This document shows positions 1-64,000 of a stretch of 64,000 nt of DNA, piece after piece (position 1 is the stretch's first letter; each line of letters starts with the position of its first letter). The position numbers and the translations under genes are program-made. The DNA is from Nakazawaea peltata. Its lineage: Eukaryota > Ascomycota > Pichiomycetes > Alaninales > Pachysolenaceae. The notes below the pieces were generated by a model. That model made no database searches, was not told the DNA's origin, and was given only the letters and a program-made list of their open reading frames with translations. Location of the stretch: assembly GCA_001599355.1 (NCBI GenBank), contig BCGQ01000002.1, forward strand, positions 199,554-263,553. The letters are read 5' to 3'.

Positions 1-1040
1 CTGTCTATATGGATGAGCAGCCGCCATTATCTCTTATATATCAGCCTGTCTATTTATAGCTCTTCAAGCCCAATTAAGGATAAAAATAAAAATAAAAAAC
101 CAAAAAAAAAACAAAGGGAGAAAAGATTTTCGCGTGGGTTCCAAAAATTTTCCTCTGTAGCAGTGAAATTTAAGGATGCAGATGGAATTATGCAGGAAAG
201 CTGGGCGAGACAGGGGAGGGAAAGAGAGGGAAAGAGAGGGAGAGAGAGGAATGGAGAGGAGAGAGAAGAGGGAGGAGATGCAGAACAGGAAGAGCAGAGA
301 GGAGGAAGAGAGGTAGAAACTGAGCGGGAAACAAGGAGAGCTCGATCCTTCGATTGAACTCGTGCGCTGTTCCTTAACTCTGTTCATGCACTTGCCTCTT
401 TCGATGCACTTCCAAGATTATACCAATTAAATGCATGACAATTAAATTTGATTAGCTTCGTTTTTAATTTATCTAAAGCTGGGCGCAATTATTGACCGTG
501 GGGAATAAGGAAGAGGGTGGATCAAAGGGTGGATCAAGAGTAGGTGAATCAAGAGAAAGTGATTAAGAGAAGGTGGATCAAGAGTGTGGATCAAGTAGAA
601 GTGACGATCTTTATCTAAGTATTCAAATATCTTTAAGTTTGCCTTGTGTGTCTTGTATCTCTCGTATCAGTTTCCTTTCTATCGCCCTCATTTCTTCTCT
701 CCCTTTGATAAATCCGAAACAATAGGCCCTTTTGGCATGGAGAGCTTTCCACATCTTTTTCTCGGCCACACTTCACGCACAAAAGCACTCTATTTTGACG
801 CGTTTCCGGAGTCAGGAGTATGCCGTAAAAGGAAAGTTTAGGAGAAAAAATCTGGAGCTAAAAATGAAAACAAATTTCTTGAAAGGGAAAGAGCTAAGCG
901 CAGATGAGCATAAAATGGGAAATGTGATCTGATACATTAGGGAGTCTAGACGAGAGTAGGGAGAGAGGAGAAGGGAAGAGAAGGGAAGTAGACAGAAAGT
1001 AGGAAAGAGAAGAAGCGAAGAGAAGAAGAGAAGAAAAGTA

Positions 1041-1145
1041 GAGAAGTGAGAGGTAGAGAAGTGAGAGGTAGAGAAGTGAGAGGTAGAGAAGTGAGAGGTA
1101 GAGAAGTGAGAGGTAGAGAAGTGAGAGGTAGAGAAGTGAGAGGTA
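1041..1145. repeat. 15-bp tandem repeat, 7 units
   Basis: The unit GAGAAGTGAGAGGTA is repeated seven times without error, and a partial unit follows. Because 15 is a multiple of three, the minus strand shows an open frame of repeating pentapeptides. That is a by-product of the unit length, not evidence of a gene. Confidence 0.95.
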
Positions 1146-1176
1146 GAGAAGTGAAGTGAAGTAACTGGAGTAAGTG

Positions 1177-1177
<1 letters not shown>

Positions 1178-1249
<72 letters not shown>
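1178..1249. repeat. GTAA tetranucleotide microsatellite (about 18 units)
   Basis: This is an uninterrupted run of GTAA units. The flanks (GTAACTGGAGTAAGTGA before, GTAACTGAAGTAAGTGA after) are near copies of one another, which suggests growth by slippage from a duplicated seed. Read on the + strand the array is a string of overlapping GTAAGT splice-donor sequences. Confidence 0.95.
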
Positions 1250-1959: not shown

Positions 1960-3942
1960 ATGTTCAAGAAATTAATCGGCGGTAGCCACGACAAGTCCGC
2001 CAAATCAAAAACATCAAATGGTTCCACGTTAAAATCTGGGGCGGCGGCTAAATCATCCAACGGCAAGAAAACAATAACCGAAAAAGAGTCCCCTCAACAT
2101 ATCGAGAACGCCGCTGGTTCAACTGCTGATGACGGTTATGATAGTGACAGCGAGGCTCAATTGCGTCTGAGATTGAACTTGGTCGAATCTCCAGAAGATT
2201 TGAAACCTATTACTAATAACCCAAATTTGCCATTCGGTGATGGCTCAAATAAGATCTTTGGAATGGAGAATTTCGGTAATACATGTTACTGTAACTCGAT
2301 CTTACAAGTGCTATATTATACTACCGAGTTCAGAAAAGCTATGCTCACGTTCCCTGAACGTGATCCTTCCCATTTCCGTAAGAGAAGATTGTATGTGACG
2401 GGTGATAAATTACATGGGTTTGTCCAACTGCAATTGAATCAGATGGATCCTGCCGATTATCTGTCGTATCCACACACGGATTCTTCCTCTGATGACGCAT
2501 CTACTAAAGTTGAGAAAAAGAAAGGATTATTTGGGATGGGAAAATCCAAGCAACAGACAGTTTATTCGAATTCTACTTCCACAACAGCTAATAATTCATC
2601 ATATCTTTCTGGACATCTGAATGGAGATGGTTCTACCCCAAATTCAGCTGGTGAACATGAAGACGAGATCCAACAAATCAAAAATTCTTATTTGATCGAT
2701 AAAAATATCCTGAAAAAATACCCAGCTTTACAAAGTATCAAATCGGTTTATCAATTGAACCAACAACGCACCTTATCAATATTGGGAGACACAGAAGATC
2801 CAAACGATAACGTTGAACGTAGAAAAAGACACGCATTATTCACCGGACCAATCATCAATTTAGACCATCTTTACAATGACACTTATGGAATGCAAAAGAC
2901 TTTGTTCTCGGCTCTTAAAGACGTGTTCGAATGTATGGTTGAAAACAAGAGTCTGACTGGTGTCGTTTCCCCACAAAAATTGATCGAAGTATTGAAAGAG
3001 GAGAATGAGCTTTTCAGAAGTTCAATGCATCAAGATCTGCATGAGTTCCTCAACTTCCTCGTAAATAGTATATTAGAAGTAGTAGACATGTATGATAGCC
3101 CAAGTAACAAGGATGAGCCTCGTAAAGGTTCTACGAGTTCGATGCTCTCTGAAGAGAAGAGACAAATTCATGATATTTTCGAAGGTTTACTTTCAAGTGA
3201 AACTAAATGTCTTTGTTGTGAAACGGTTTCGACTAGAGATGAAAAATTCATGGACTTGTCGATCGATTTACTGAAATCTTCTTCAGTTACAAGCTGTCTT
3301 AAACAATTCTCACAAAGTGAAATGTTACAAGATCAAAACAAATTCTATTGCGATTCATGTCATTCGTTACAAGAAGCTCTGAAGACGATCAAATTGAAAA
3401 AACTCCCAAAAGTATTACTGTTACATTTAAAAAGATTCAAATACTCGGATGAACTCAACAGAAATATGAAATTATTCCATCGTGTCACCTACCCTAAGAA
3501 CTTAAGACTCTTCAACACCACCTCCGACACAGAACAGCCAGATAAATTATACCAATTGTACGCTGTGGTTGTCCATATTGGAGGAGGACCTCATCATGGT
3601 CATTATGTATCGTTGATCAAGACGGAGAATTTCGGCTGGTTACTTTTCGACGACGAAGCCGTAGAATGTATCGACGAGAATTACGTGTTCAAGTTCTTCG
3701 GTGACGGTCCAGGTTTACTGACACTGTATGTATTATTCTATAAAGAGACAGATGAGTTATCAAATATGAAAAATAATCTCTTCAACGGGTTTGAAGATGG
3801 AGAAATAGAGAGTGATTTCGAATTAGGTGGAGTGGCCCAAGATCAAACTTTAGATTTGAAATTAGGTTTAGATGCTTCAGATAAATTATCGGCCTCATTA
3901 TCAGAACCAAAGAACAAAAAGATGTTCAATTGGAAAAAATAA
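1960..3942 (+). CDS. UBP9: Ubiquitin carboxyl-terminal hydrolase, Ubp9/Ubp13 (USP12/46) type
   Basis: This 660-residue USP-family cysteine protease removes ubiquitin from proteins. Seen in the sequence: a Cys box GNTCYCNSILQVLYY with the nucleophile near residue 109; a zinc-ribbon pair (CLCC near 420, CDSC near 465) in the fingers region; a His box GGPHHGHYVSL with the catalytic His near 548; and an acidic partner in LLFDDEAVE. An insertion rich in Ser/Asn (about 165-235) and a charged C-tail surround the core. Two CTG codons (360 and 487) sit where USPs have conserved Ala (QDAHEF, ILALHLKRF). In S. cerevisiae UBP9 and UBP13 are duplicates; a single ancestor is expected here. The stop codon directly abuts the stop of the convergent PRPP synthetase. 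Confidence 0.9.
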   Translation: MFKKLIGGSHDKSAKSKTSNGSTLKSGAAAKSSNGKKTITEKESPQHIENAAGSTADDGYDSDSEAQLRLRLNLVESPEDLKPITNNPNLPFGDGSNKIFGMENFGNTCYCNSILQVLYYTTEFRKAMLTFPERDPSHFRKRRLYVTGDKLHGFVQLQLNQMDPADYLSYPHTDSSSDDASTKVEKKKGLFGMGKSKQQTVYSNSTSTTANNSSYLSGHLNGDGSTPNSAGEHEDEIQQIKNSYLIDKNILKKYPALQSIKSVYQLNQQRTLSILGDTEDPNDNVERRKRHALFTGPIINLDHLYNDTYGMQKTLFSALKDVFECMVENKSLTGVVSPQKLIEVLKEENELFRSSMHQDLHEFLNFLVNSILEVVDMYDSPSNKDEPRKGSTSSMLSEEKRQIHDIFEGLLSSETKCLCCETVSTRDEKFMDLSIDLLKSSSVTSCLKQFSQSEMLQDQNKFYCDSCHSLQEALKTIKLKKLPKVLLLHLKRFKYSDELNRNMKLFHRVTYPKNLRLFNTTSDTEQPDKLYQLYAVVVHIGGGPHHGHYVSLIKTENFGWLLFDDEAVECIDENYVFKFFGDGPGLLTLYVLFYKETDELSNMKNNLFNGFEDGEIESDFELGGVAQDQTLDLKLGLDASDKLSASLSEPKNKKMFNWKK

Positions 3943-4947
3943 CTATATAACAACATGGTTAAATAAATATGATACACTCTCACCGTAATGTAATCTACGT
4001 ATCAGTTCACCCAACATCATACTGACGTCGATGATATCCAATTTAGGACATTGGGCCAATTTATCACCCAATGGCATCGAATTTGTGCAAACTACTTTCT
4101 CCAAACATGAATTATTGATCAACTCAATGGCATTACTACTGAAAATTCCATGAGTAACTATCAGAATAACACGTTTGGCACCATTCTCATTCTGTAAAAT
4201 ATCCAGCAGCTTACATAACGTCCCACAAGTGTCTGCCATATCATCTACAAGGATACATGTCTTACCGGTGACATTACCAACGAGGACCATCTTGGATACT
4301 TCGTTAGGTTTAGCACGTTCTTTATGGATCAAGGCGAAATTCAAATCCAATTTGTCCAGAATCAGAGCTACTCTTTTCAGTCCTCCTGCATCTGGACTTA
4401 CAATGATCAAATCGTCAGCCCTTGCTGACGCATTAGAAGGATGCAAATAGTTCTGTTTGATATAGTTCAACACATTTGGTTCCAGGTATAAATTATCGAC
4501 CGGGATATTGAAGAACCCTTGGATTTGGGACAGATGTAAATCCAATGTGATCACATGGTCACAACCAGCAGTTTGTAACAAGTTAGCCACCAATTTCAGT
4601 GTAATAGGAGCACGAGATTTATCCTTCTTATCTTGTCTGGCATATGGGAAACTTGGAATTAACGCCGTGATACGTCTAGCTGAAGCACTTTTAGAGGCAT
4701 GGATTAAGATCAATAATTCCATCAAATAATCATTAATGTCATCTCCACCACATCCTGTTTGGATGATATACACATCCTCATCTCTAATACTCTCTCCAAT
4801 GACCACAGAGCTTTCTCTATTGGAGGTTTGATCCACTGTGATACGGGATAATGGGATGTCTAAATTCAGGGAAACTAACAGCAGGAATTCAGGATGAGAA
4901 TTCCCGGCTAATAATTTGATATCGTTTGGAGTTTTATGGACTGTCAT
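3943..4947 (-). CDS. Ribose-phosphate pyrophosphokinase (PRPP synthetase), Prs2/3/4 type
   Basis: Makes 5-phosphoribosyl-1-pyrophosphate from ribose-5-phosphate and ATP for nucleotide, His and Trp synthesis. The 334-residue length fits the short PRS paralogues rather than Prs1 or Prs5, which carry inserts. Visible motifs: ATP-binding [14 protein letters not shown], the metal-site DLH in [13 protein letters not shown], and the PRPP loop [10 protein letters not shown]. The tail CPKLDIIDV...ESVSYLF resembles Prs3. The first 60 residues are divergent: the usual TGEVSFSIGES reads [12 protein letters not shown], losing the Gly of the GE motif. It may therefore be a partner subunit in a heteromeric enzyme, as yeast Prs proteins usually are; that is inference. 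The paralogue assignment is uncertain. An RRPE-like AAAATTTTT lies upstream at 5057-5065. Confidence 0.9.
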
Positions 4948-6012: not shown

Positions 6013-6026
6013 TTTGACATTTATGA

Positions 6027-6733: not shown

Positions 6734-6745
6734 TACACCTAATGC

Positions 6746-7493: not shown

Positions 7494-8090
7494 ATGGGTA
7501 TTTCTCGTGATTCAAGACACAAAAGAGCCGCCACCGGTGCTAAGAGAGCTCAATTCAGAAAGAAGAGAAAGTTCGAATTGGGTCGTCAAGGTGCTAACAC
7601 CAGAATCGGTCCAAAGAGAATTCACTCTGTCAGAACAAGAGGTGGTAACCAAAAGTTCAGAGCTTTGAGAGTTGAGACCGGTAACTTCTCTTGGGCTTCT
7701 GAGGGTATCTCCAGAAAGACCAGAATTGCTGGTGTCTCTTACCATCCTTCCAACAACGAATTGGTTAGAACTAACACTTTGACCAAGTCTGCTATTGTCC
7801 AAGTTGATGCTACTCCATTCAGACAATGGTACGAGACCCACTACGGTCAACAATTGGGTAAGAAGAAGACTGGTGTCGAAGAAGTCAAGAAGTCTAGAAA
7901 GGTTGAGAGAAAGTTGGCCGCTAGAGCTTCCCAAGCTGAGATCGAGGCTGCCGTTGCTGCTCAATTCAACTCTGGTAAATTGTACGCTTGTATCTCTTCC
8001 AGACCAGGTCAATCCGGTAGATGTGATGGTTACATCTTGGAGGGTGAAGAATTGGCATTCTACTTGAGAAGATTGAACACCAAGAAATAA
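7494..8090 (+). CDS. RPS8: Small-subunit ribosomal protein eS8
   Basis: A 198-residue eS8 of the 40S subunit. The highly conserved N-terminus [18 protein letters not shown] and a C-terminus with [20 protein letters not shown] identify it. Lys/Arg-rich throughout, length as in other yeasts. Codon use is strongly biased (AGA, TTG, GGT, GCT, TCC, CAA), as expected for a highly expressed gene, and no CTG codon occurs in it. It is preceded by a leader intron and by Tbf1/Cbf1/Homol-D-like sites. Confidence 0.98.
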
Positions 8091-8742
8091 GTTACTTATA
8101 TCTAGGTTTATTCTCTTTTAGTTTGTATCTTCATGAAAAAATAAAAATATAATATAATATATCTTTCATATAAGATCATTCTTGTATTCTGTCTAATTAA
8201 GCGTAGGGTATTTAAGAGGGGGTTGGCCAGAGAATGAGAGAATGAGAGAATGAGAGAGCCAGGGAACGAGAGAGCAAGACAGCCAGAGAACCAAGAGAAG
8301 GCAGGAGAAAAGACTTTACCTACACATTTTCTACACATTTCTACACATTCCTTACACAATTCCAACTAATTCATTAAATCTATACACAAATCTTGTTAGT
8401 AAATCTCCTCCATAATATTAACTATGGAAATGTAAAGATCAGTGTTAGGCAATATAGTTTATCTGCAACTTCCCCCCATAAAAAGGGGAATCAGTACAGG
8501 TCTGTGTTATATTTTTCTCATCAGTAAGATTACACCTCCATCGATTCAATTAAACATACCTAGAACTCAATCTATCTTCACTTATTTAGTTGTCGTTTTA
8601 TAAAAGAACCAGCTTTTTACTCTACTATTTTCTTAAGTATTGGGAAAATTTTTATTGTGTGCGGTTAACTATAGAGGAAAAAATTTTCTTTGGCAGATCT
8701 GAAAGGTCGTGCACACTCAATAACACCCCCAATCTAAGAGGC
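8091..8742. other. Intergenic spacer, RPS8 to glucoamylase (convergent)
   Basis: Between two gene 3' ends. It contains three exact AGAGAATG units (8229-8252) within a longer degenerate purine stretch to about 8310, and AT-rich sequence around 8130-8170 that may serve 3'-end formation for RPS8. I see no gene. Confidence 0.6.
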
Positions 8743-10671
8743 TTACAAACTAGCCAAGTTAGTGATATAATCTGAATCACCCTTGGCATTAGCTCTGGCG
8801 TAGGCTGCTGTTAAGACAGAAGCATAAGACCAGGTAAGATCTTTGGCACCTCTTGGTTTACCAGTGTATTTATTGAATTCTTCTGGCAAATGTCCATCCT
8901 CATCAGCGTAGTACTTGACGGTTCTTAAGAAGGCATCACCCCAACCGACTAACGATGAGATCAGTTGCTGGAATTGTTTGGAGTTTTGAGATTTCTTAAT
9001 TTGACAAGAATTGTGTGATTTATGAGAGTTATGAGAATTACGGCCCTTGGCTGTAGTAGTGGTAGAAGTAACAGAGTCCAGAGTCAATCCGGTGAAATAT
9101 TCCCAGAATGAGGCAGTAACATTGTTGATTTCAATCTGTTGATTCTCAGTTTGAAGTTCAGAAGCCAAGTTGTAGAAATACTCAGCAAAGGCCAGACATG
9201 ATAAATACCATGGGTTACCTTCACTACTTCCAACACCGTCATAAACATCTTCTGGGTATCTACCAGTTGGAGAGGCTAATGGGAGTCCCTGAGAGTCTTT
9301 AGTGACAGCAGACAAGTTAGAGTAAACATCGATGAAAGAAGTAGAGATCTCATAAACAGAAGACAAGACATAGTCATTAGAATAGGAGAAAACACCATCG
9401 TCATTGTATGCATGGTTAACCAGTAAAACAACAGAAAGATCCTTGTACGAAATCTTGTTCTTTTGGACAGCTCCATAGTCGGTCAAAATCAAATTTCTAG
9501 CTGGGTAGACAAATTGAGAGAGAGTAGAATTCAAGTCTTGGACTTCTTCATTCAATAAAGAAGTAATTGAGTCATCATTGATTTGCTTAGCGAAATCAAT
9601 ACCATCTAATAACAGCTTTCTTTGAACAAATTTAGTGTAAAAGTGATCAGACTTGACCTCTTCCCATAAATCAAAAGACTCAACTGTCCAATTGTTAGCA
9701 ACAAATTGTAAATCAAGCTTGATTGGTTGCACCCATAAGTCATTGTAGACAGTATCTTTAGAACCACCCTTCTCTAAATACAGTTTAGCAAATCTGATCA
9801 AAGCAGATGCTCTAGTCAGAGGACCATCGTTTTGTGGTCTACCCCAAGATCCCAAATAACCAGTGTTGTTCTGCAAATAGAACTTAGGTTCTCCTAAACC
9901 AGTAATCAGGGTCTTATCATTTTGTTCGAAAACAGAAGCATTGGCATATTGGAAAACCAACTCTTCAAGTACCAGAGCATTACTGTTTCCCCTTGGCAAA
10001 GACTCATATAATTGAATCAAAGCATCAAAAGTCAAAGAAGCATCACGGATCCAATGGTAAGCATAGTCAGGTTCAGAGTAAGATTGAGCAGCAATGACTA
10101 AACCTTTAACAGAACCATTGACGTTGATGTTGTCGAAGACTCTTTCCTTTGAGATATAAGCTTGAGAAGATTTGCTGGAGTCGTCAAGCCATTGATCAAT
10201 ATCTCTATAGAATCCAGAAGGCTGAATCAGAGCTGTAGCAATAGTACTGGTAGCAGACTCTTCTGGGTCACTTTGAGTAACATCTTGATTAACAATGGTG
10301 TAGTAGACATCACCAACATCTTCATCAGTATAAGTAACGTTCAAGATCTTGGAAAGACCTTCGACCTGATAAATATCCTGGTCAATGGTCCACAATTCCC
10401 AATTGTCATCCAATGAACTGTCGTAACCAGCGGCCATAGAAGTCAAAGCAGTTGACTCTCCATCATCGTTAGCATAGTACAAGATGACAGTTTTATCATA
10501 GTCATCATTGTAAATGTAAATATCGGCACTGAAAACTCCAGCATCATAATCATAAGAAGCAAGTTGAACGTGGTTGGTAGAGTTAACCAGCTGAGGAGAA
10601 CTAAGCAACTCAACCTTGTCAGCTCTAACCAAAGCCAGACAAATCAAAGTGGCAACAGAAGTCAATAACAT
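8743..10671 (-). CDS. Secreted glucoamylase (glucan 1,4-alpha-glucosidase), GH15
   Basis: Releases glucose from the non-reducing ends of starch or glycogen. I start at the ATG ending at 10671 (642 residues): it opens a signal peptide MLLTSVATLICLALVRA and leaves a TATA element (10722-10731) about 50 bases upstream. An in-frame ATG at 10719 sits right against that TATA and is less likely. An N-terminal beta-rich module (about 20-130) looks like a CBM21-type starch-binding domain (inference). GH15 motifs: YHWIRDASLTF, general acid Glu in FDLWEEVKSDHFYT, ASPTGRYPEDVYDG, and the base region LPEEFNKYTG before DLTWSYASVLTA. A Ser/His/Asn/Lys insert (GRNSHNSHKSHNS) separates the last two. CCCCGG at 10746 could be a Mig1 glucose-repression site. 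Confidence 0.93.
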   Translation of the reverse strand: MLLTSVATLICLALVRADKVELLSSPQLVNSTNHVQLASYDYDAGVFSADIYIYNDDYDKTVILYYANDDGESTALTSMAAGYDSSLDDNWELWTIDQDIYQVEGLSKILNVTYTDEDVGDVYYTIVNQDVTQSDPEESATSTIATALIQPSGFYRDIDQWLDDSSKSSQAYISKERVFDNINVNGSVKGLVIAAQSYSEPDYAYHWIRDASLTFDALIQLYESLPRGNSNALVLEELVFQYANASVFEQNDKTLITGLGEPKFYLQNNTGYLGSWGRPQNDGPLTRASALIRFAKLYLEKGGSKDTVYNDLWVQPIKLDLQFVANNWTVESFDLWEEVKSDHFYTKFVQRKLLLDGIDFAKQINDDSITSLLNEEVQDLNSTLSQFVYPARNLILTDYGAVQKNKISYKDLSVVLLVNHAYNDDGVFSYSNDYVLSSVYEISTSFIDVYSNLSAVTKDSQGLPLASPTGRYPEDVYDGVGSSEGNPWYLSCLAFAEYFYNLASELQTENQQIEINNVTASFWEYFTGLTLDSVTSTTTTAKGRNSHNSHKSHNSCQIKKSQNSKQFQQLISSLVGWGDAFLRTVKYYADEDGHLPEEFNKYTGKPRGAKDLTWSYASVLTAAYARANAKGDSDYITNLASL

Positions 10672-11479
10672 TGTATTTAATGTGCTATATACTTGATCTA
10701 TAAAGAGGGTGAAGACCATAGTATTTATATCTTCCAGTAAATTAACCCCGGGTATATGAGGATAGGTATTCTCCCCTCCAACTCTCTACTGAAGTCATTC
10801 ATATGTTTCTCGGTGCCTTAAAACGCAACTTTATCCTTATGTAACATTTCATGTATGGAGACTTTTCATTGTTTTACCCCGTATTTTTCCTAAGATCTGC
10901 CTTGCATTTGTTGTCGGAAATAAATGTAATAATACTTTAACAATTGTAAACGAGGATCCGGATAAAAATGAATGAGGGGATAAGTGAATCTAAGGTAGTG
11001 CCTAAGCCTGCGACTAGGCTTATAGGAGATCAAAATTAAGGTTTTTTTTGAATTGTGGGTTGGTCACGACTGTCTTAAACTTTGAGTTACTACCATGCAG
11101 TTGAGCCACTCGGAATTTGTTATTACCTTAACCCCACACCTACAGAAATTTTCCCCTGACCTGCAGTTGGTTTGCTGTTTGACTCGCTCATTTTAAAGAT
11201 CGCGTTCTGTGATTGGAAATTAGGTCTGCATGATCATATGAATTTTTCCTTCTCGAGGCCAATTTCGGAACTTGAGCCGGTTCTCCACACTTTAAAGCTC
11301 TCCTTGGCACAATTTTCACCGTTTAAACGACGATATCCCACGCTTCACAGATTCCTAACAAATGCCCGGAGTAACTCTCAATAGATCTTCTAGATTGTAT
11401 TAGTAAGGCAGGATAAGGGTCATGTTTTGATCTACATTTGCCAAGGTCAATTGATTCAAATAAACCTTATTATTTATCC

Positions 11480-11741: not shown

Positions 11742-11812
11742 GCGCAAATGGTTTAGTGGTAAAATCCAACGTTGCCATCGTTGGGCCCCCGGTTCGATTC
11801 CGGGTTTGCGCA
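11742..11812 (+). tRNA. tRNA-Gly (anticodon GCC)
   Basis: A 71-base gene with a full cloverleaf. The acceptor stem GCGCAAA pairs with TTTGCGC, followed by discriminator A. The D arm contains TGGTTTAGTGGT (A box). The anticodon stem CAACG/CGTTG closes a 7-base loop TTGCCAT with anticodon GCC. The T arm carries GGTTCGATTCC (B box). There is no intron. A T-run just after the gene fits a Pol III terminator. It reads GGC and GGT glycine codons. Confidence 0.98.
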
Positions 11813-12935: not shown

Positions 12936-13661
12936 ATGGTGAAACCAATTATTGCCCCATCTATTTTGTCACTGGACTTTGCTCAGTTGGGTTGTGAATG
13001 TCACAGAATGTTTGATTCTGGATCCGACTGGATTCATATCGATGTCATGGACGGTAATTTCGTACCTAATATTAGTATGGGACCGCCAATTGTCAATTCG
13101 TTGAGAAAGGAGCTCCCTAGAGGAGGTAAGGACGGTAAGTCTGCGAGCTTTTTCGATTGTCATATGATGGTTGCCGACCCAGAAAAATGGGTACCTGAGA
13201 TCGCTAAAGCCGGTGGTGACCAATATACCTTCCATTATGAAGCTACTGAGAACCATTTAGAATTGGTTCAGTTGATTAAGAAGCATGGTATGAAAGCTGC
13301 ATGTCTGTTGAAGCCAGCAACACCCGTTGACGTGTTGTATCCATTCATTGAACACTTGGATATGGTTTTGATCATGACTGTGGAACCAGGATTTGGTGGA
13401 CAAAAATTCATGCCAGAAATGATGCCAAAGGTACAAACATTAAGATCGAATTATCAAGATTTGAATATTGAAGTCGATGGTGGTTTAGGTAAGGAGACAA
13501 TTCCTGCTGCTGCCGATGCCGGTGCTAACGTTATCGTTGCCGGTACTTCTGTATTTAAGGCTGACGATCCTTCTGAAATGATCGAGTTATTAAGAAGAAG
13601 AGTCCATGACAGCTTAGAGGCCAAGGGACTTTTGAATGACAAGAACTATCATTGCTACTAA
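12936..13661 (+). CDS. RPE1: Ribulose-5-phosphate 3-epimerase
   Basis: Interconverts ribulose-5-phosphate and xylulose-5-phosphate in the non-oxidative pentose phosphate pathway. It is a 241-residue TIM barrel. Seen: [14 protein letters not shown] at the start, the metal/catalytic motif [14 protein letters not shown] with its Asp, DCHMMV with the metal His, [13 protein letters not shown] (phosphate-binding loop), and VDGGLG with the second catalytic Asp. Strand-end [10 protein letters not shown] completes the pattern. Codon 124 is CTG at the position usually Ala in the A-[IL]-K-P-x-T motif, supporting CUG=Ala. It is convergent with ALB1. Confidence 0.97.
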
Positions 13662-16961: not shown

Positions 16962-18068
16962 TTAATTAACTTTGTTGATTGGATAAAGACCTTCACCACC
17001 TTCAAGTAAGACGTTCATGATGTTCTTCATACTGACTTCATGAGATATGACAAGGTTATCGGTAGTCATAGAACCAGTATGAGGAGTCATTACAACATCC
17101 CATCTTTTGAGGAAACGAGGATCAACATTTGGTTCATTTTTGAAGACATCTAAACCAACACTGTTAACAGTTCCATCTTCCAACAGTTGGAACAAGACGT
17201 CTTCATCGATGGCCGAGCCTCTTCCGATGTTGACGATACGAACACCAGGCTTGACCAACTTAATGGTGTCCAGATTGATAAGATCAGTGGTCTCTGGGGA
17301 ATGAGGAACCAGCAAGACGATCAAATCACATACTGGGATCAAGTCATGGAAAGTAGGATGGAAAGTCAACTCAAATGGTAACAGTTTCAGTTCTTCCTCG
17401 CTAAGAGGAGTTCTCTTGGTGTAATGAACCTTCATACCAATAGCCCACATTCTCTTCAGAATAGCCTTTCCAATAGCACCCAAACCGACAATACCAACGG
17501 TATGTCCCTGTGGAGAACTGATCAACTTCCCTCCTAAGATACGGTCCATACGTTGCTTGGACTTGTCTGCAAGCATAGGGGTTCCATCTTCAGCGAAGGC
17601 AGTGCTTCCGACGTATTTTCTTGGGGCCTCCAGATCACCAGTCTCTCTAAATTTCAGCTCAATGAATGGGGTCAATCTGTAGCATTGTAAAGTTAATTGT
17701 AACAGAGCATCGGCAACATGGTCGGCACTGATAGGACCAACGTTACAAACGATAATACCATTCTCGGACAGCTTGGCAAGGTCCATAGTATCGTACCCCA
17801 CCCATGGGTAAGTCATGACTTTGACGGATTTTGGGAACTTATCAAAGAAGTTATTTGGGTTACTGACATTCCAAATACCATCAAAAATGTTAAAGATAGC
17901 AGAGACATCATTGAATTTAGTCTTTAACAGATTCTCCAAGTCTTCCAGAGACTCAGGTTTATAACCTAAAACTTCGAAATGTTTGCAAAATTCTTCGAAA
18001 ACAGCATTATCTTTGAGAAATTCTGGTCTCCCAATAGCTAAGACCTTCAACTTATCTGGTACGGACAT
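16962..18068 (-). CDS. D-isomer-specific 2-hydroxyacid dehydrogenase (paralogue 1)
   Basis: A 368-residue NAD(P)-dependent dehydrogenase of the D-lactate/glyoxylate reductase superfamily, closest in layout to fungal D-mandelate dehydrogenase-like enzymes. Seen: nucleotide-binding GIVGLGAIGKAILKR (GxGxxG near residue 200) followed by HYTKR, whose basic residues suggest NADP preference; the catalytic triad Arg in VNIGRGSAID, Glu in VFKNEPNVD and His in MTPHTGS. The substrate (glyoxylate, 2-keto acid or mandelate type) cannot be assigned. It faces away from a paralogue across a shared 767-base spacer and ends 40 bases from convergent GNT1. Confidence 0.9.
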   Translation of the reverse strand: MSVPDKLKVLAIGRPEFLKDNAVFEEFCKHFEVLGYKPESLEDLENLLKTKFNDVSAIFNIFDGIWNVSNPNNFFDKFPKSVKVMTYPWVGYDTMDLAKLSENGIIVCNVGPISADHVADALLQLTLQCYRLTPFIELKFRETGDLEAPRKYVGSTAFAEDGTPMLADKSKQRMDRILGGKLISSPQGHTVGIVGLGAIGKAILKRMWAIGMKVHYTKRTPLSEEELKLLPFELTFHPTFHDLIPVCDLIVLLVPHSPETTDLINLDTIKLVKPGVRIVNIGRGSAIDEDVLFQLLEDGTVNSVGLDVFKNEPNVDPRFLKRWDVVMTPHTGSMTTDNLVISHEVSMKNIMNVLLEGGEGLYPINKVN

Positions 18069-18835: not shown

Positions 18836-19948
18836 ATGACCAAACCAAGAATCCTTAAATTGGGTAAACCAGTCGATGAAGACGACAAACATTTCTATGA
18901 CCTCGTTGAGCTGGTCCCTTACCAGATCCCATCGAGAGCTGGTTTCTTAGAAGACTTGAAAACTTCCTTGAGTGATATCACTGCTATGTGGTTCTTACCA
19001 GGTGGTATTATGGGAAAAGATGGATCTGTCGTCATTATGGACAAGGAATTCATCCTGGGATTACCTCTGTCTTTGAAAGTCATCGCCATTTGTTCCATTG
19101 GGTTCGATAGATACGATTTATCGCTGTTGAATAAGCGTGGAATCATCTTATGTAATACCCCTCTGTTGCTGTCCGACCAAGTCGCCGATACCGCCTTGTA
19201 TCATGTTTTAAACACTTTCAGACATTACAACTTCTTTGAGAAACTGTTCCGTGAGACCGGAACCACCGCTAAGGCTAAAGCTTTAGCAGCCTCTAAACTT
19301 CTTGATCCGGAAACTGCGTTCCCAACTGGAGTTGATCCAAGTCAGAAGTCTATTGTCACTGCCGAAACCGTCAACAACAAAATCGTGAGAACTCCAAGAG
19401 GTAGAGTCGTAGGTATCGTTGGTCTCGGAGCCATTGGACAAGAATTGCTGAAGAGATTGTTTGCTCTTGGTATGGAGATCCATTATACTAAGCGTAAGCC
19501 AATCACCGAGCTGGAACATCAAAGAATGGGCTCTTACATCCCATTGAAATACCACGACTCCTTCGAGTCTCTTTTACCTATTTGTGACTTATTGGCCTTC
19601 TGTGTTCCTCTCAACCCTCAAACTAAGTACATGTTGAATGCCGACACTTTGAGCAGATGTAAAGACGGAGTCCGTGTCATCAATATTGGTCGTGGAGCAA
19701 CTATCAATGAAAAAGATTTGTTGCTGGGATTGAAATCTGGAAAGGTACTTTACGCAGGTTTGGATGTACTTGAAAATGAGCCAAATGTAGACCCAGTGAT
19801 GCTTAAGAGATGGGATGTAAGTCTTACTCCACATATTGGATCTTCTACTTACGATAACAGAGTATTGAGTGCTGTTAATTGCCAGAAGAATATTTTGAAC
19901 GTTGTTATTGATGGAGGAGAAGGATTGACCCCAGTTCACCTGGATTAA
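18836..19948 (+). CDS. D-isomer-specific 2-hydroxyacid dehydrogenase (paralogue 2)
   Basis: 370 residues, similar throughout to the neighbour at 16962-18068: same GIVGLGAIGQELLKR nucleotide fold near residue 200 followed by HYTKR, catalytic Arg in INIGRGATIN, Glu in VLENEPNVDP and His in LTPHIGSST. Both share FRETG and a long loop before the nucleotide-binding domain. The N-terminal substrate domains have diverged more, so the two may use different 2-keto acids. They probably arose by an inverted duplication. The 3' end runs into an AAATAAT-rich spacer next to the convergent complex I gene. Confidence 0.9.
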   Translation: MTKPRILKLGKPVDEDDKHFYDLVELVPYQIPSRAGFLEDLKTSLSDITAMWFLPGGIMGKDGSVVIMDKEFILGLPLSLKVIAICSIGFDRYDLSLLNKRGIILCNTPLLLSDQVADTALYHVLNTFRHYNFFEKLFRETGTTAKAKALAASKLLDPETAFPTGVDPSQKSIVTAETVNNKIVRTPRGRVVGIVGLGAIGQELLKRLFALGMEIHYTKRKPITELEHQRMGSYIPLKYHDSFESLLPICDLLAFCVPLNPQTKYMLNADTLSRCKDGVRVINIGRGATINEKDLLLGLKSGKVLYAGLDVLENEPNVDPVMLKRWDVSLTPHIGSSTYDNRVLSAVNCQKNILNVVIDGGEGLTPVHLD

Positions 19949-21171: not shown

Positions 21172-22371
21172 ATGGTGATACAAGATAAACCAAACAAGAA
21201 GATGCCTTATAAGTTAGAAACCGAGTTAGTCCGTACTCTGCACGATGATGGATACCATTCATCGATTGTTCCTTTGTACCAATCTGCTACTTTCAAGCAA
21301 CCATCGTTGAGTGAGATGGGTGAATATGACTACACCAGATCAGGAAACCCAACTAGAACTGCCTTGCAACTGCACTGTGCCAAGATCATGAAGGCTGACC
21401 ATTCATATGCTGTCAGTTCTGGTATGACTGCTCTTGATGTCATTTGTAAGATCTTGAAGCTGGGAGATGAGGTTCTTGCTGGTGATGATTTGTATGGTGG
21501 AACTCAAAGATTGTTGACCATGTACAACACTAATGGATTCTTGAAAGTATCTCATTATGACACCACCAACACCGAGTTATTCAAGTCCAAGATCACCAAA
21601 TCGACCAAAATGATCTTTTTGGAAAGTCCTACCAACCCTTTGATCAAGGTTGTCGATGTTAAGCTGATCTCTGAGTATGCTCATCAAGTCAACCCGGATG
21701 TCATCGTTGTCTTCGATAACACCATGATGTCTCCAATCTTGATGACTCCTTTAGACCTTGGATGTGATATCCAATACGAGTCTGCTACCAAGTACTTGAA
21801 CGGACACCACGATTTGATGGCCGGTGTTATTGCCACTAGATCCAAGTCTTTGAGTGACAGATTATACTTTGTCATTAACTCGACCGGGGCTGGTTTACTG
21901 CCATATGATTCTTGGTTATTGCTCAGAGGTCTTAAGACCTTGTCTATCAGAATCTTGAAACAACAAGAAAACGCCATCAAGGTTGCCGAGTTCTTGGAAA
22001 AGACCGGATTGAAGGTTAGATACCCTGGATTGAAGTCTCATCCACAATACGAATTGCACAAATCTTACACCAAGGGACCTGGTGCCGTTCTTTCTTTCGA
22101 GACCGGCTCTATTCCTATCAGTGAGAAGATTGTTGAAGGTTGTGATATTTTCGGTATCACTGTCTCGTTTGGATGTGTCAATTCGTTGATCTCTATGCCA
22201 TGTCAGATGTCTCATGCTTCTATTGATCCAAAGGTCAGAGCCGAGAGAGAATTCCCTGAGGATTTGATCAGATTATGTATTGGTATCGAGGATGTCGATG
22301 ATTTGATTCTGGATTTGAAGAATCTGTTGATCAAGAGTGGTGCTATTACTGAGGAACAGGCTTCTGCTTAG
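21172..22371 (+). CDS. STR3: Cystathionine beta-lyase (Str3-type)
   Basis: A PLP enzyme that splits cystathionine to homocysteine, ammonia and pyruvate in methionine synthesis from cysteine. The longest open frame begins upstream at a TTG; the first ATG is at 21172 (399 residues). Seen: YDYTRSGNPTR, AVSSGMTALDV, AGDDLYGGTQRLL, FDNTMMS and the PLP lysine in ESATKYLNGHHDLM, followed by FVINSTGAG and SFGCVNSL...MSHASI, all as in S. cerevisiae Str3. Unlike that protein, which ends in the peroxisomal signal SKL, this one ends QASA and shows no obvious PTS2, so a cytosolic location is likely. CTG codons fall at plausible Ala sites (LKAGDEVLAGDD). Confidence 0.93.
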   Translation: MVIQDKPNKKMPYKLETELVRTLHDDGYHSSIVPLYQSATFKQPSLSEMGEYDYTRSGNPTRTALQLHCAKIMKADHSYAVSSGMTALDVICKILKLGDEVLAGDDLYGGTQRLLTMYNTNGFLKVSHYDTTNTELFKSKITKSTKMIFLESPTNPLIKVVDVKLISEYAHQVNPDVIVVFDNTMMSPILMTPLDLGCDIQYESATKYLNGHHDLMAGVIATRSKSLSDRLYFVINSTGAGLLPYDSWLLLRGLKTLSIRILKQQENAIKVAEFLEKTGLKVRYPGLKSHPQYELHKSYTKGPGAVLSFETGSIPISEKIVEGCDIFGITVSFGCVNSLISMPCQMSHASIDPKVRAEREFPEDLIRLCIGIEDVDDLILDLKNLLIKSGAITEEQASA

Positions 22372-54983: not shown

Positions 54984-57515
54984 ATGTCTTTTAACGGAGT
55001 AAAAAGAAGAAGAGATGACGACGAAGACGAAGGTCAGTTCGAAGGTCAACGAATCCCTCGTCTGCCACGTTTTCAGAAAAGACAACGTCAAGAATTATCC
55101 CAAGAATTGCAATTGGCCATCAAGTTGTGTGACGATATCACCAAGCTTGGAGAAAAGCCGTTGAAAAGTTTCTGTAATGATATCAATTACATGTCGTTTC
55201 CGATCTCTGAGGAGATCCAGGAGAGTGATGAGATCAGAAATGCTCTTTTGAAGACATTTTATGCCGTCATTGTCGAGCAACCCCATAAGCTTCCTTTGCT
55301 CAGTGCTTTGTTGCACGTTTGTAACTTGAGGAACTCGATTGTTGGGAAATATATATTTGAGTATTTGCACCAGAGACTGCAGGAGTTGATTGTGGAGTTC
55401 GAGGAGGGGTCCTTGACCAAGTTGAAGTTGATTTTGAGGTTCTTTGCTATCAATAGAAAGCTTGTAATTGAGGACTCGGTTTTCAAGATTTTTGAACAGT
55501 TTTTGAATGTGCTGGTGGAGTTATCTAGGGCCACTCCAGGGGTCCGTAATGGAGTTCTGGAACTGATCTTCTATGGTGTAACCTTGTCGATTCCATATTT
55601 GAGATTTTATGGTGAATCTGCCGAGAACGTCAACAGCTTATTAGAGCTTCTGAAAGATTTTGAGATTGTTCAATTGGACTCATTATCTATGTATGAACAT
55701 TTCGATGATACTGTGGTTAAATTAGAGAAACCTTACGTTCTGAAGTCTTTAGTTTCGTTGGTATTACCTCTGGTATTGGACTCTGACTCTGTAGACTCGG
55801 TTTTCCTTTCTACTGATAAATTAATCGAGCCCTTGTTGAATGAATTGAACAATTATGAATTGACTCAACATATGCTCCCACAATTCAATATCTCTGATGA
55901 GATCTTGGCTGATAAACAAGACTCTCATTGGAAACACCATAGAATGGTCCTCGAAGTTTATACCCCGGCCTTACATGGCTTTGAAACTAAACCTTCTGTA
56001 GAATCTTATTTAGGATTATTGTTGAACGATATCTGTCAAGATATCATCCAGAATATGGAGTTCAACAAGAACAGTGTTCTGCAACAGTTAATGATGCTCG
56101 ACCAGTTCTTTGAGCCTGGCTTATTCTCGAAATTGGGATCTTCAATCGACAAATTGACCATCTTGAACGATAAAAAGAACGGTACCATTTTGGAAATCAA
56201 TCCAGAAGATCCTCTGAATGAGAAAATCCAGCTGATCATCTCGGAGATTGATTCTGAAATGGAACAAGGCTTGACTTCGACTTGGAAGATCGAGGATGTC
56301 TTGACTGAGGCCATTTTGAACTTGATTTTCAACTTACCTGAAGTCTCGACTCCAATTATCTATTTCTACACAGTTTTGGTGGAATGTTGTAGCAAAGAAT
56401 CAAAGCTGATGCTGCCGGTCTTCGGTAGAGCTATTAGATTCTTCTTTGCGAATGTCCTGCTTATGGATTTCGAGTTGAGATCGAGATATTTGGATTGGTT
56501 GGCTGTTCAGTTGAGTAATTTCAGATTCCAATGGAAATGGCATGAATGGCGTGATCATGTCCAGCAGTTGAATGGAGTTGAGCATCATCCGATCATGATT
56601 TTCATCAAGAATTTGATCCTGAAAGAGATCAGATTGAGTAATCTCAACAAGATCAAAGACACTTTACCAGAAGAGTTCTACAGTTACCTTGATATCTCAC
56701 TTTGTGATGCAGACAAGATTAAGGATTATGATACCGAGTTATTTGGAGAGTTCTGGGAAGAAAAGGAAGAGGGCAAGAAGTTGAGTTTCAAGTTTGGTTA
56801 TGAACAAAACCCGGAGAAGGAGAAGTGTGATAAGATATTTGAACTTCTTCGACTGGATATTCCCGATTTACAAGAATTCCAAACCTTAGTTGGGGAGATT
56901 GTGGAGTCTCATAATGCCAAATACGCGATTAATGTGATTTTCCAACTGAGTTGTGTCATTGGGTCAAGATCTATCTCTCACATCAAAGGATTCCTCGAAA
57001 GAAACACCGACAAGTTGATCCTGGTGTTGACCTCGATCGACGACGAAGCCAAATATCAATTTGTCGTTGAGAGTGTGCTCAGAATTTGGAATCTGGAGCC
57101 TCAAGTTGGTTTTTTGATCTTGGAGATGTTGCTCAGCAACAAAATTATCGACTCGTGGAAATTTTATTTGGATCTGATCTTTAAACATGTTCTTGTGAAT
57201 ATCAGTGCGGTCGAGTCTCTTTTAAGAGTTATGTCTAATAGAGAATTATACAATGTAGGAGAGGAAATTTTCATGGAGTTGTATAAATTGATTGAGGGAG
57301 CATTGAATGAGTTGGGACCTCAAGAAAATATCACCAGTTTATTAGAGGAGACTGATGATGCCAAATGGAAATATGCCGAATTGTTGAAATTGACTAAATC
57401 GATCATTAGAAAATATAGTGCGTATTATAAGGTTGGTGAGGAGGAAATTGATATTCAAGACACGACCACTAAGCAAATTATCAGTTCATATTTCGATGAT
57501 CTGAGAAAGTTGTAA
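54984..57515 (+). CDS. STO1: Nuclear cap-binding complex large subunit (CBP80)
   Basis: Binds Cbp20 and the 7-methylguanosine cap of nascent transcripts, aiding splicing and export. The first ATG is at 54984 (843 residues); the longer frame opens at GTG. A basic N-terminal RRRDDDEDEG and FQKRQRQ look like an NLS. An N-terminal MIF4G domain (about 45-260) and two further MIF4G-like domains follow. LSNFRFQWKWHEW near 515 is the CBP80 signature. PVFGRAIRFFF matches the S. cerevisiae protein, and the two CTG codons just before it (475, 477) align with Ala-Ile-Ala there. The S. cerevisiae gene has an early intron; I see none here. Confidence 0.95.
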   Translation: MSFNGVKRRRDDDEDEGQFEGQRIPRLPRFQKRQRQELSQELQLAIKLCDDITKLGEKPLKSFCNDINYMSFPISEEIQESDEIRNALLKTFYAVIVEQPHKLPLLSALLHVCNLRNSIVGKYIFEYLHQRLQELIVEFEEGSLTKLKLILRFFAINRKLVIEDSVFKIFEQFLNVLVELSRATPGVRNGVLELIFYGVTLSIPYLRFYGESAENVNSLLELLKDFEIVQLDSLSMYEHFDDTVVKLEKPYVLKSLVSLVLPLVLDSDSVDSVFLSTDKLIEPLLNELNNYELTQHMLPQFNISDEILADKQDSHWKHHRMVLEVYTPALHGFETKPSVESYLGLLLNDICQDIIQNMEFNKNSVLQQLMMLDQFFEPGLFSKLGSSIDKLTILNDKKNGTILEINPEDPLNEKIQLIISEIDSEMEQGLTSTWKIEDVLTEAILNLIFNLPEVSTPIIYFYTVLVECCSKESKLMLPVFGRAIRFFFANVLLMDFELRSRYLDWLAVQLSNFRFQWKWHEWRDHVQQLNGVEHHPIMIFIKNLILKEIRLSNLNKIKDTLPEEFYSYLDISLCDADKIKDYDTELFGEFWEEKEEGKKLSFKFGYEQNPEKEKCDKIFELLRLDIPDLQEFQTLVGEIVESHNAKYAINVIFQLSCVIGSRSISHIKGFLERNTDKLILVLTSIDDEAKYQFVVESVLRIWNLEPQVGFLILEMLLSNKIIDSWKFYLDLIFKHVLVNISAVESLLRVMSNRELYNVGEEIFMELYKLIEGALNELGPQENITSLLEETDDAKWKYAELLKLTKSIIRKYSAYYKVGEEEIDIQDTTTKQIISSYFDDLRKL

Positions 57516-59074: not shown

Positions 59075-62000
59075 ATGTCGTATAATAACGACTATTACGA
59101 TCCCAACGCTCCGACCGATCAACCTCAACAACCTCAATATTACGCCGAGGGATATCATCCATCGGATGAAGGTTTAGATCAGTCGCAGCAAGGTGGATAT
59201 TACGATCCAAATCAGCCTCAATATGGTTATGATCAACCGCAATACGGAGATTATGATCCAAATCAACTGCAATATGGTGGCTACGATCAACAGTATATCG
59301 ATCCAAACCAACAAGGTGCTTATTATGAGCAACCAAGAGCCGGAGATGAGAACTTTTCCGACTTCAGTTATGGTCCAAATGGTGGTGTAGGTACTCCTTA
59401 TGATGGTTATGGTACTCAATATACTCCATCTCAGATGTCGTATGGATCTCCTAGATCTTCTGGAGCTTCGACTCCAATCTATGGAGCTGGTCCTTATGAT
59501 CCAAGTGCCATGGCTGCCTTGCCAAGAGACCCATATCCAGCTTGGACTGCCGATAATCAGGCCCCAGTCACTATCGAACAAATCGAAGATGTCTTTATTG
59601 ATTTGACCAACAAGTTTGGTTTCCAAAGAGACTCGATGAGAAACATGTTCGATCATTTCATGGTTTTATTGGACTCGAGATCTTCTCGTATGGCTCCTCT
59701 GCAAGCCTTGTTGTCGTTGCATGCCGATTATATCGGTGGTGACAACGCCAACTATAAGAAATGGTACTTTGCTGCCCAATTAGACTTGGACGACGAAGTT
59801 GGTTTCGCCAACATGAAGTTGGGTAAGTTAACCGGTAAGGCCAGAAAGGCCAACAGAAAGTCCAAGAAGCTGAGAAAGGCTATGCAAGAGAACGGTGAGG
59901 ATACCGAACGTACCATCACCGCTTTGGAAGGTGATAACTCTTTGGAAGCTGCCGACTACAGATGGAAGGCCAAAATGAATCTGTTGACGCCAATGGAAAG
60001 AGTTAGACAAATCGCCTTGTATTTGTTATTGTGGGGTGAAGCTAACCAAGTGAGATTTGTTCCGGAATGTTTGTGTTTCATCTACAAGTGTGCCGACGAC
60101 TACTTCAACTCTCCAGCTTGCCAACAAAGACAGGAGCCTGTCCCAGAAGGTGACTACTTGAACAGAGTCATCACTCCATTATACCGTTTCATCAGATCTC
60201 AAGTTTACGAGGTCCAAGATGGTCGTTTCATCAAGCGTGAAAAAGACCATAACAAGGTTATCGGTTATGACGATGTCAACCAATTGTTCTGGTACCCAGA
60301 AGGTATCTCCAAGATCATCTTTGAAGATGGTTCTAGATTGGTCGAGGTTCCTCTGGCCGAACGTTACTTGAGATTGGGTGAATGTGATTGGAACAATGTC
60401 TTCTTCAAGACTTATAAAGAAGTTAGATCTTGGTTGCATTTCATCACCAACTTCAACCGTATATGGGTCATCCATGGTTCTGTCTACTGGATGTACACTC
60501 TGTACAACTCTCAAACTTTATATACCAAGGACTATGTCTACTTGGTAAATAATAAACCATTACCATCCTCGACTTGGTCTGCTTGTGCTTTGGGTGGTAC
60601 TTTTGCTTGTGTCATCCAAATCTGTGCTACTCTTTTCGAATGGATGTTTGTTCCTCGTGCTTGGGCTGGTGCTCAACATTTGACCAGAAGATTGATGTTT
60701 TTGATTTTAATCCTCTGTGCCAACTTGGCTCCAGTTATCTTTGTCTTCTCTTGGGCTGGTTTGACTTACTACTCTAAGCTGGCGTATGCTGTCTCTATTG
60801 TCGTATTCTTCATCTCGGTCTTCACCGTTGTCTTCTTTGCCGTTATGCCTTTGGGTGGTTTGTTCACTTCTTATATGAAGAAGAGTTCCAGAAGATATGT
60901 TTCTTCGCAAACTTTCACCGCCTCCTTCGCTAAGTTGCACGGTTTGGACATGTGGTTATCTTATTTATTATGGTTCTTAGTCTTCTTAGCTAAGTTGGCT
61001 GAATCTTACTTCTTCTTGACCTTGTCCTTGAAGGATCCAATTAGAGAGTTGTCTACTATGACCATGAGATGTCACGGTGAGAAATGGTACAATGATGTTC
61101 TTTGTAAGCAACAACCAAAGATTGTCTTGGGTTTGATGTACCTGACCGATTTCATCTTGTTCTTCTTGGATACTTATATGTGGTACATTGTCTGTAACTG
61201 TGCCTTCTCTGTTGGTAGATCTTTCTACTTGGGTATTTCCATCTTGACTCCATGGAGAAATATCTTCACCAGATTGCCAAAGAGAATCTACTCCAAGGTT
61301 TTGGCTACTACCGACATGGAGATCAAGTACAAACCAAAGGTTTTGATCTCTCAAGTTTGGAATGCCGTTGTTATTTCCATGTACAGAGAGCATTTATTGG
61401 CTATTGACCACGTCCAAAAGTTGTTGTACCACCAAGTCCCAAGTGAAATTGAAGGTAAGAGAACTTTGAGAGCTCCAACCTTCTTTGTCTCTCAAGATGA
61501 TAACAACTTTGAGAATGAATTCTTCCCAGCTAACTCCGAAGCCGAACGTCGTATCTCTTTCTTCGCTCAATCTTTGGCTACTCCAATCCCAGAACCTTTA
61601 CCAGTCGACAACATGCCAACTTTCACTGTTTTCACTCCTCATTATTCCGAGAAGATCTTGCTTTCTTTACGTGAGATTATCAGAGAAGATGGTCAATACT
61701 CCAGAGTTACTGTTTTGGAATATTTGAAGCAATTGCACCCAGTCGAATGGGACTGTTTCGTCAAGGACACCAAGATTTTGGCTGAAGAGACCGCTGCCTA
61801 CGAAAACGAGGGTGACGAAGAGAAGGATGACAACTTGAAGTCCCAAATCGACGATTTACCATTCTACTGTATTGGTTTCAAGAGTGCTGCTCCAGAGTAC
61901 ACTTTGAGAACCAGAATCTGGGCCTCCTTGAGATCTCAAACCTTGTATAGAACTGTCTCTGGTTTCATGAATTACGCCAGAGCCATCAAATTGTTGTACC

Positions 62001-64000
62001 GTGTTGAAAACCCTGAGATTGTCCAAATGTTCGGTGGTAATGCCGAAGGTTTGGAGAGAGAATTGGAGAGAATGGCTAGAAGAAAGTTCAAGTTTGTTGT
62101 CTCCATGCAAAGATTGTCCAAATTCTTGCCTGAAGAGTTGGAGAACGCCGAGTTCTTGTTACGTGCTTACCCTGACTTACAAATTGCTTACTTAGACGAA
62201 GAACCTCCATTACAAGAAGGTGACGAGCCAAGAGTTTACTCTGCCTTGATCGATGGTCACTGTGAGATCATGGAGAACGGTAGAAGAAAACCAAAGTTCA
62301 GAATCCAAATGTCCGGTAACCCAATCTTGGGTGACGGTAAGTCCGATAACCAGAACATGGCCGTCATCTTTACCCGTGGTGAATACTTGCAATTGATCGA
62401 TGCTAACCAAGATAACTATTTGGAAGAGTGTCTTAAGATCAGATCTGTCTTGGCTGAATTTGAAGAATTGAACGTTGAACATGTTAACCCTTACGCTCCA
62501 GGTTTGAAGAAGGAAACTACTCAAACTCACCCAGTTGCTATCGTCGGTGCCAGAGAATATATCTTCTCTGAGAACACCGGTGTCCTTGGTGATGTTGCTG
62601 CCGGTAAGGAACAAACCTTTGGTACTTTGTTCGCCAGAACATTGGCCCAAATTGGTGGTAAGTTACATTATGGTCACCCTGATTTCTTGAACCAGATCTT
62701 CATGAACACCCGTGGTGGTGTCTCTAAAGCTCAGAAAGGTTTACATTTGAACGAAGATATCTATGCTGGTATGAACGCTATGTGTCGTGGTGGTAGAATT
62801 AAGCACTGTGAATATTATCAATGTGGTAAAGGTAGAGATTTAGGTTTCGGTTCCACCTTGAACTTCACCACCAAGATTGGTGCTGGTATGGGTGAACAAA
62901 TGTTATCGAGAGAATACTACTACTTGGGTACCCAATTGCCATTGGACCGTTTCTTGTCTTTCTACTATGCTCACCCTGGTTTCCATATCAACAATATCTT
63001 CATTACCATCTCTGTCCAATTGTTCATGTTGACCTTGGTTAACTTGAACTCTTTGGCTCACGAGGCTATCATCTGTTACTACAATAAGAACCAACCTATC
63101 ACCGATCTTCATATCCCATACGGTTGTTACAACTTGTCTCCAGCCGTGGACTGGATTCGTCACTATACTTTGTCGATTTTCATTGTCTTCTTCATCTCTT
63201 TCATCCCATTGGCTGTCCAAGAATTGATCGAACGTGGTGTCTGGAAGCTGACTCAAAGATTCTTCAAGCATCTTTGTTCATTGTCTCCAATGTTTGAAGT
63301 CTTTGTTGCTCAAATTTACTCCTCGTCTTTGATCGCCGACATGACCGTTGGTGGTGCTCGTTATATCTCCACCGGTAGAGGTTTCGCCACTGCCAGAATT
63401 CCATTCTCCTTGTTGTACTCGAGATTCGCCGAGAGTGCCATTTACATGGGTGCTAAGAGTATGTTGATGTTGTTGTTCGGTACCGTTGCTCATTGGCAGC
63501 CAGCTTTGTTGTGGTTCTGGGCTTCTTTGTCCGCCTTGATGTTCTCTCCATTCATCTTCAACCCTCACCAATTTGCTTGGGAAGATTTCTTTGTCGATTA
63601 CAGAGATTACATCAGATGGTTGTCTCGTGGTAACACTAAATGGCACAAGAACTCTTGGATCGGTTACGTTAGATTGTCTAGATCTAGAATTACCGGTTTC
63701 AAGCGTAAGTTGATTGGTGATGCTTCTGAAAAGGCTGCCGGTGACGCTCCAAGAGCTCATCGTTCCAACATTTTGATCGCCGACACCATCCCATGTTTGA
63801 TCTACACCGCTGGTTGTTACGTTGCTTACACTTATGTCAATGCTCAAACTGGTGTTTCTGACAAGGATGCTCAAATTGTCAACTCGACTTTACGTATTGT
63901 CATTTGTTCTTTACTGCCAGTTGTCATTAACATTGGATGTTTGTTCTTCCTTCTTGCCTTGTCTTGTTGTTCTGGTCCAATTTTCAGTGTCTGCTGTAAG
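59075..64000 (+). CDS. FKS1: Beta-1,3-glucan synthase catalytic subunit (5' part, runs off window)
   Basis: GT48 plasma-membrane enzyme that makes the main cell-wall glucan from UDP-glucose; Rho1 is its regulator. 1642 codons are present with no stop; about 230-260 residues of the usual roughly 1880-1900 are missing beyond 64000. A Tyr/Gln/Asp/Pro-rich N-terminal tail (1-130) precedes the Fks1 domain; the first membrane bundle starts near residue 470. The cytosolic catalytic core includes [20 protein letters not shown] and [19 protein letters not shown]. Echinocandin hot spot 1 reads FLTLSLKDP (residue 647 on) and hot spot 2 DWIRHYTL, each differing from the usual Arg-bearing form. Two CTG codons (residue 690, and 63248-63250) align with Ala in S. 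cerevisiae. Confidence 0.97.

Follow-up and report, generated by a model that had tools for sequence, protein, structure and literature searches.

CUG is translated as leucine almost everywhere. The stretch of DNA analysed here, a window of 64,000 nucleotides, raises the question of whether its genes keep to this rule, and a reading made from the sequence alone (the sequence-only reading) had proposed that they decode CTG as alanine. The window is gene-dense and eukaryotic in appearance. We analysed 29 genes comprising 14,509 codons, 280 of them CTG; the doubtful open reading frames (ORFs) 1-357, 812-1333 and 1515-1985 (3 CTG) had been removed from a wider initial set of 32 ORFs and 283 CTG. 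The yeast gene names used below, like the species of the PDB chains, are provisional and come in part from the sequence-only reading. The proposal held: alanine was the best meaning of CTG in masked alignments (38 of 107 sites) and gave the highest Pfam total. These results indicate that the window is almost certainly nuclear genome of a CUG-Ala yeast of the order Alaninales (Pachysolen, Nakazawaea or Peterozyma), read with NCBI code 26.

CTG reads best as alanine

We translated CTG as X, which favours no meaning, and ten of the 29 proteins were compared with PDB chains. One match was counted per protein, namely the top match, except for the ribose-phosphate pyrophosphokinase (PRS), for which the fourth of five near-identical matches shown was used. 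Further matches of PRS, STO1 and the ubiquitin protease (UBP) were near-copies and were excluded from the counts, second matches for PGM3 and STO1 were tallied apart from the main count, and the FKS1 alignment was used only to about residue 906. The ten proteins contain 133 CTG codons, of which 107 had an aligned partner, 3 fell in gaps and 23 lay outside the printed or aligned stretches. The results showed that the 107 sites faced Ala 38 times, followed by Asn (8), Ser (7), Asp (7), Leu (7) and Gly (6), with other residues fewer. In the same alignments, GCN codons faced Ala at 88 of 185 sites. CTG faced Ala far more often than did the other five Leu codons (18/433, Fisher p = 6e-17) or the Ser codons (32/300, p = 6e-8), and stratification by gene left no difference between CTG and GCN in how often Ala was faced (odds ratio 0.82, p = 0.58).

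A Codetta-like likelihood was computed over the 61 sense codons, with each codon withheld from its own training. This codon-reassignment caller, run on the ten window proteins, ranked alanine first among 20 candidate meanings of CTG, ahead of Ser by 9.9 and of Leu by 50.1 log10 units. The standard meaning was recovered for 55 of the 61 codons, including every codon with more than 12 sites except CTG; the other exceptions (CGA, CGG, AGC, AGG and GCG) have at most 12 sites each, too few to judge. Among the well-sampled codons, CTG alone thus deviates from the standard code, and the meaning that suits it best is alanine. Of the 47 CTG sites with conserved flanks (identity of one half or more), 22 faced Ala, 3 Ser and 3 Leu, and Ala was ahead of Ser by 8.6 log10 units.

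Profile scores agreed. We summed Pfam bits for 20 of the 29 proteins, covering 33 families, with CTG read as Ala (table 26), Leu (table 1) or Ser (table 12); the remaining nine genes were scanned under code 26 only. The totals were 4327.5 bits for Ala, 4242.0 for Ser and 4120.5 for Leu, Ala being the highest of the three. Ala scored above Leu in 29 of the 33 families (Wilcoxon p = 3e-6) and above Ser in 27, with one tie (p = 3e-5), the tie being the kinase domain (Pkinase) of YCK3. Overlapping secondary families were excluded from the sum, and most of them also favour Ala; among the others, Leu comes out ahead in TRI12 and Pkinase_fungal and Ser in DSPc (by 0.5 bits) and CDKN3 (by 0.2 bits), Ala and Leu score alike in PK_Tyr_Ser-Thr and OMPdecase, and Met_gamma_lyase was reported under Ser only.

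The sequence-only reading had cited, as examples chosen by hand, twelve sites at which it took Ala to be conserved. All twelve are in-frame CTG codons; the eleven on the plus strand lie in the genes it named, and the twelfth is codon 98 of PRM15/PGM3, on the minus strand (31589-31587). Of the six plus-strand sites that fall in counted PDB alignments, five faced Ala (3037, 3418, 56406, 56412 and 61142), the exception being EAF3 25786; the sites at 13305, 23713, 23911, 44239 and 63248 lie outside these alignments. The PRM15 site, within HNPA-x-DNGYK, did not fit Ala, facing Gln in the top match and Leu in the second. For RPE1, we compared the best 80 bacterial relatives among the matches listed; these had been retrieved with the protein translated under code 26, whose patterns skip both CTG codons, and the alignment itself used X. 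Codon 124 (13305), one of the twelve, corresponds to Ser in 57 of these relatives and to Ala in 14, whereas codon 13 (12972-12974), absent from the earlier list, corresponds to Ala in 69. Some hand-picked sites therefore fail, yet the aggregate Ala signal is confirmed far beyond chance.

Genes and other features of the window

Pfam matches in the window include a ubiquitin hydrolase, a ribose-phosphate pyrophosphokinase, a family 15 glycosyl hydrolase, a ribulose-phosphate epimerase, two D-2-hydroxyacid dehydrogenases, a Cys/Met-metabolism enzyme, a protein kinase, MRG, an aspartyl protease, Anp1, a phosphoglucomutase, a SNARE, a gamma-tubulin complex protein, a MIF4G-like protein and a glucan synthase. 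Under code 26, the Pfam scan gave no match for the genes at 13760-14203, 15443-16921, 51626-54820 and 35837-36457. Genes that bear on the meaning of CTG are collected in the table.

Table. Genes of the window and the residues faced by their CTG codons
Gene	Position	Strand	CTG codons	Observation
Ubiquitin protease (USP12/46-like)	1960..3942	+	12	Aligned: 2/7 Ala (3037, 3418), 0 Leu
Ribose-phosphate pyrophosphokinase (PRS)	3943..4947	-	13	9/13 Ala, 2 Ser, 0 Leu
RPS8	7494..8090	+	0	198 codons; 20 inferred Ala codons, all GCN
Glucoamylase, family 15	8743..10719	-	12	Aligned: 3/9 Ala, 1 Leu
Ribulose-phosphate 3-epimerase (RPE1)	12936..13661	+	2	Codons 13 and 124
D-2-hydroxyacid dehydrogenase	16962..18068	-	12	Aligned: 5/8 Ala, 0 Leu
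D-2-hydroxyacid dehydrogenase, second paralog	18836..19948	+	11	Pfam bits top with Ala; outside PDB alignments
Cys/Met-metabolism lyase	21172..22371	+	7	Aligned: 1/6 Ala, 2 Ser, 0 Leu
Protein kinase (YCK3-like per sequence-only reading)	23251..24648	+	4	Includes GT-x-RYMS at 23911; outside PDB alignments
EAF3/MRG	24856..25935	+	15	Top match: 0/15 Ala, 2 Leu, 11 charged or polar
MNN9/ANP1 family	28425..29804	-	18	Aligned: 6/16 Ala, 1 Ser, 1 Leu
Phosphoglucomutase family (PGM3/PRM15)	30267..31880	-	13	Top match: 3/9 Ala, 1 Leu; second match: 2/5 Ala, 2 Leu
STO1/CBP80 cap-binding	54984..57515	+	21	Top match: 6/18 Ala, 2 Ser, 1 Leu; 56406 and 56412 both Ala
FKS1 1,3-beta-glucan synthase, runs off window	59075..64000	+	10	Aligned: 3/6 Ala, 1 Leu

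In the Cys/Met-metabolism lyase, Pfam bits were highest with Ala, 1.0 above Ser. The two dehydrogenase paralogs are neighbours in opposite orientation, and 147 of their 356 aligned residues are identical. Their alignment contains 22 columns bearing CTG, of which 1 pairs CTG with CTG (the sole shared position), 2 pair it with GCC and 1 pairs it with Leu; in 11 of the 22, CTG faces D, E, K, R, Q or H, a lean towards charged and polar residues like that seen against the PDB chains.

Several features lie outside these genes. A match to the C/D-box small nucleolar RNA snR56 was found at 8437-8528 (-), between RPS8 and the glucoamylase gene, at 58.2 bits against an Rfam gathering score of 54. Dense arrays of short tandem repeats occupy 953-1270 and 58160-58532; the former includes a perfect array of 30-base units (1038-1154) and an AGTA array (1169-1270), and the latter, upstream of FKS1, consists of several arrays with units of 12-25 bases. 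Two short plus-strand ORFs, at 49473-49757 (94 aa) and 50094-50369 (91 aa), may encode proteins that resemble Pkr1 and, in the second case, the part of Dap1 that is cytochrome-b5-like.

Other decodings of CTG

Several results weigh against a plain alanine code. Without stratification, the share of sites facing Ala was lower for CTG than for GCN (35.5% against 47.6%, p = 0.05), and CTG faced D, E, K, R, N, Q or H at 34.6% of sites against 11.9% for GCN, an excess that persisted after stratification by gene (odds ratio 4.0, p = 5e-5). Much of the polar or charged excess is supplied by EAF3 (11 of 15 sites), in which no CTG faced Ala and 25786, named beforehand as an Ala site, faced Asp; its MRG bits were highest with Ala, while its chromodomain bits were highest with Ser. 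In the second, more distant matches of PGM3 and STO1, CTG faced Leu at 3 of 14 sites and Ala at 2, with none of the nine STO1 sites facing Ala; in the same two matches, GCN faced Ala at 7 of 23 sites and Leu codons faced Leu at 16 of 55. Among the Pfam families, Leu scored above Ala in 4 of 33 (PGM_PMM_II, MIF4G and the MFS_1 domains of both transporters), and Ser scored above Ala in 5 (the EAF3 chromodomain, PGM_PMM_III, GCP_C_terminal, N1221 and one MFS_1). In addition, neither ARAGORN, with and without introns, nor Rfam at gathering scores detected a tRNA with anticodon CAG in the 64-kb window. The sole tRNA found in the window was a tRNA-Gly(GCC) at 11742-11812 (+).

These points could be taken to favour leucine, serine or a mixture. 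A CUG that is still leucine, with the named sites due to chance, could draw on the four Pfam families, two of them MFS transporters, and on the 7 of 107 CTG sites that face Leu; the other five Leu codons faced Leu at 230 of 433 sites, and the 50.1 log10 units that separate Leu from Ala contradict a leucine meaning, which we regard as practically impossible. Serine, as read by Candida-type (Ser1) or Ascoidea-type (Ser2) yeasts, was the second-best meaning of CTG in the likelihood, outscored Ala in the five families listed above with one further tie, and is the residue of most bacterial relatives at RPE1 codon 124. However, CTG faced Ser at 7 of 107 sites, no more than GCN (20/185), while genuine Ser codons did so at 117 of 300, and Ser stood 85.5 bits below Ala over the 33 families in addition to its deficit of 9.9 log10 units, making a serine code extremely unlikely. 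The sequence-only reading had called Leu implausible and Ser a poorer fit at its sites; in aggregate Leu is excluded and Ser is clearly second, but 13305 in RPE1 fits Ser.

Ambiguous decoding, with Ala mixed with Ser or Leu, seemed at first sight to gain from a three-way mixture, which gave Ala/Ser/Leu as 0.64/0.31/0.05 (bootstrap ranges 0.46-0.86, 0.09-0.49 and 0-0.14) and an advantage of 3.3 log10 units over pure Ala, and in which the GCN control reached 0.83-1.0 for Ala. This too counts against plain alanine. When 20 components were allowed, however, Ala held 0.58, Ser at most 0.01, and N, D, Q and H most of the remainder. Because the Ser weight collapses in this wider fit, the 31% assigned to Ser with three components stands in for polar sites, and we set it aside as evidence of ambiguity. 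Moreover, Leu and Ser rates did not differ between CTG and GCN after stratification by gene (p = 0.78 and p = 0.44). We consider ambiguity very unlikely, with the proviso that a misreading of a few percent lies below the resolution of the method.

Codon usage, origin and known codes

With CTG read as alanine, we examined how it is used in the 29 genes. CTG occurs at 19.3 per 1000 codons, makes up 27.9% of CTG plus GCN, and is 1.82 times as frequent as expected from codon-position composition. The inferred Ala codons rank as GCT (361), CTG (280), GCC (223), GCA (108) and GCG (31). The CTG share per gene was 0 in both RPS8 and the ubiquitin-conjugating gene, reached 0.58 in EAF3, and fell weakly as the preference for TTG among Leu codons rose (Spearman -0.38, p = 0.04). 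As a separate observation, CTA is strongly avoided, with 27 of 14,509 codons, or 0.15 times the compositional expectation.

Published work offers a route to such a code. A tRNA-Ala whose anticodon had mutated to CAG would decode CTG; the alanyl-tRNA synthetase, blind to the anticodon, would charge it, and the ancestral tRNA-Leu(CAG) would have been lost. The account of the Ala clade in PMC5951914 derives its decoding tRNA from a tRNA-Ala gene by anticodon mutation and is also the source of the synthetase argument. How the new codon filled is a further matter. The nine single-base neighbours of CTG (ATG, GTG, TTG, CAG, CCG, CGG, CTA, CTC and CTT) include no Ala codon. As CTG and GCN are not joined by silent single changes, CTG-alanines would enter mainly by amino acid replacement at tolerant positions, which would explain why many CTG sites face polar residues. 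The replacement route could also explain why RPS8, as the sequence-only reading had observed, is free of CTG, although codon preference in highly expressed genes could do so too. It is tempting to go further and propose that in this lineage CUG spread again until it became one of the principal alanine codons, ranking second to GCT in the window at 1.8 times the frequency expected from composition, that replacements of polar residues at tolerant sites were its main source, and that the code change visibly reshaped the proteome; we consider this wider proposal doubtful. The frequency of CTG and its lean to polar sites raise the question, which can be addressed across the Alaninales, of how a new codon fills without a synonymous single-base route. 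Recognising the code also matters in practice for predicted proteins: translation with the standard code makes about 2% of predicted residues wrong on average (280 of 14,509 codons), and none in RPS8.

The CUG-Ala code found here is the already-known NCBI table 26 and is not new, having been reported since 2016 in Pachysolen and relatives. PMC5951914 places its discovery in Pachysolen tannophilus, whose name table 26 bears, and, from BLAST searches in 52 species and mass spectrometry data for 18, extends the Ala clade to Nakazawaea and Peterozyma; NCBI taxonomy places both genera in the order Alaninales, family Pachysolenaceae. CTG is likewise handled as Ala in Alaninales in PMC11540330. The sequence-only reading had pointed to the Pachysolen/Nakazawaea lineage, which is the only group with CUG-Ala in the passages on this code in PMC5951914 and PMC11540330, and the placement of the window there rests on the code itself. 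Nuclear sense-codon reassignment is very rare, and in the literature consulted CUG in budding yeasts is the sole case described (PMC5951914); PMC8629427 reports that the CUG call of Codetta matched phylogeny in 453 of 462 yeasts.

Compared with the code of Pachysolen tannophilus, the window shows the same features, with CTG fitting Ala and the other well-sampled codons standard, and we found no difference in code between the window and table 26. Usage differs: CTG is frequent in the window, whereas PMC5951914 describes CUG as relatively rare in recoded clades. The CUG-Ser1 code (Candida-type, table 12) reassigns the same codon, and in recoded yeasts CUG tends to lie at less conserved sites (PMC5951914, PMC4986446); the window departs from CUG-Ser1 in that its CTG faces Ser at so few sites. 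The CUG-Ser2 yeasts (Ascoidea, Saccharomycopsis) have also reassigned this codon, and in the window the call for CTG is clear.
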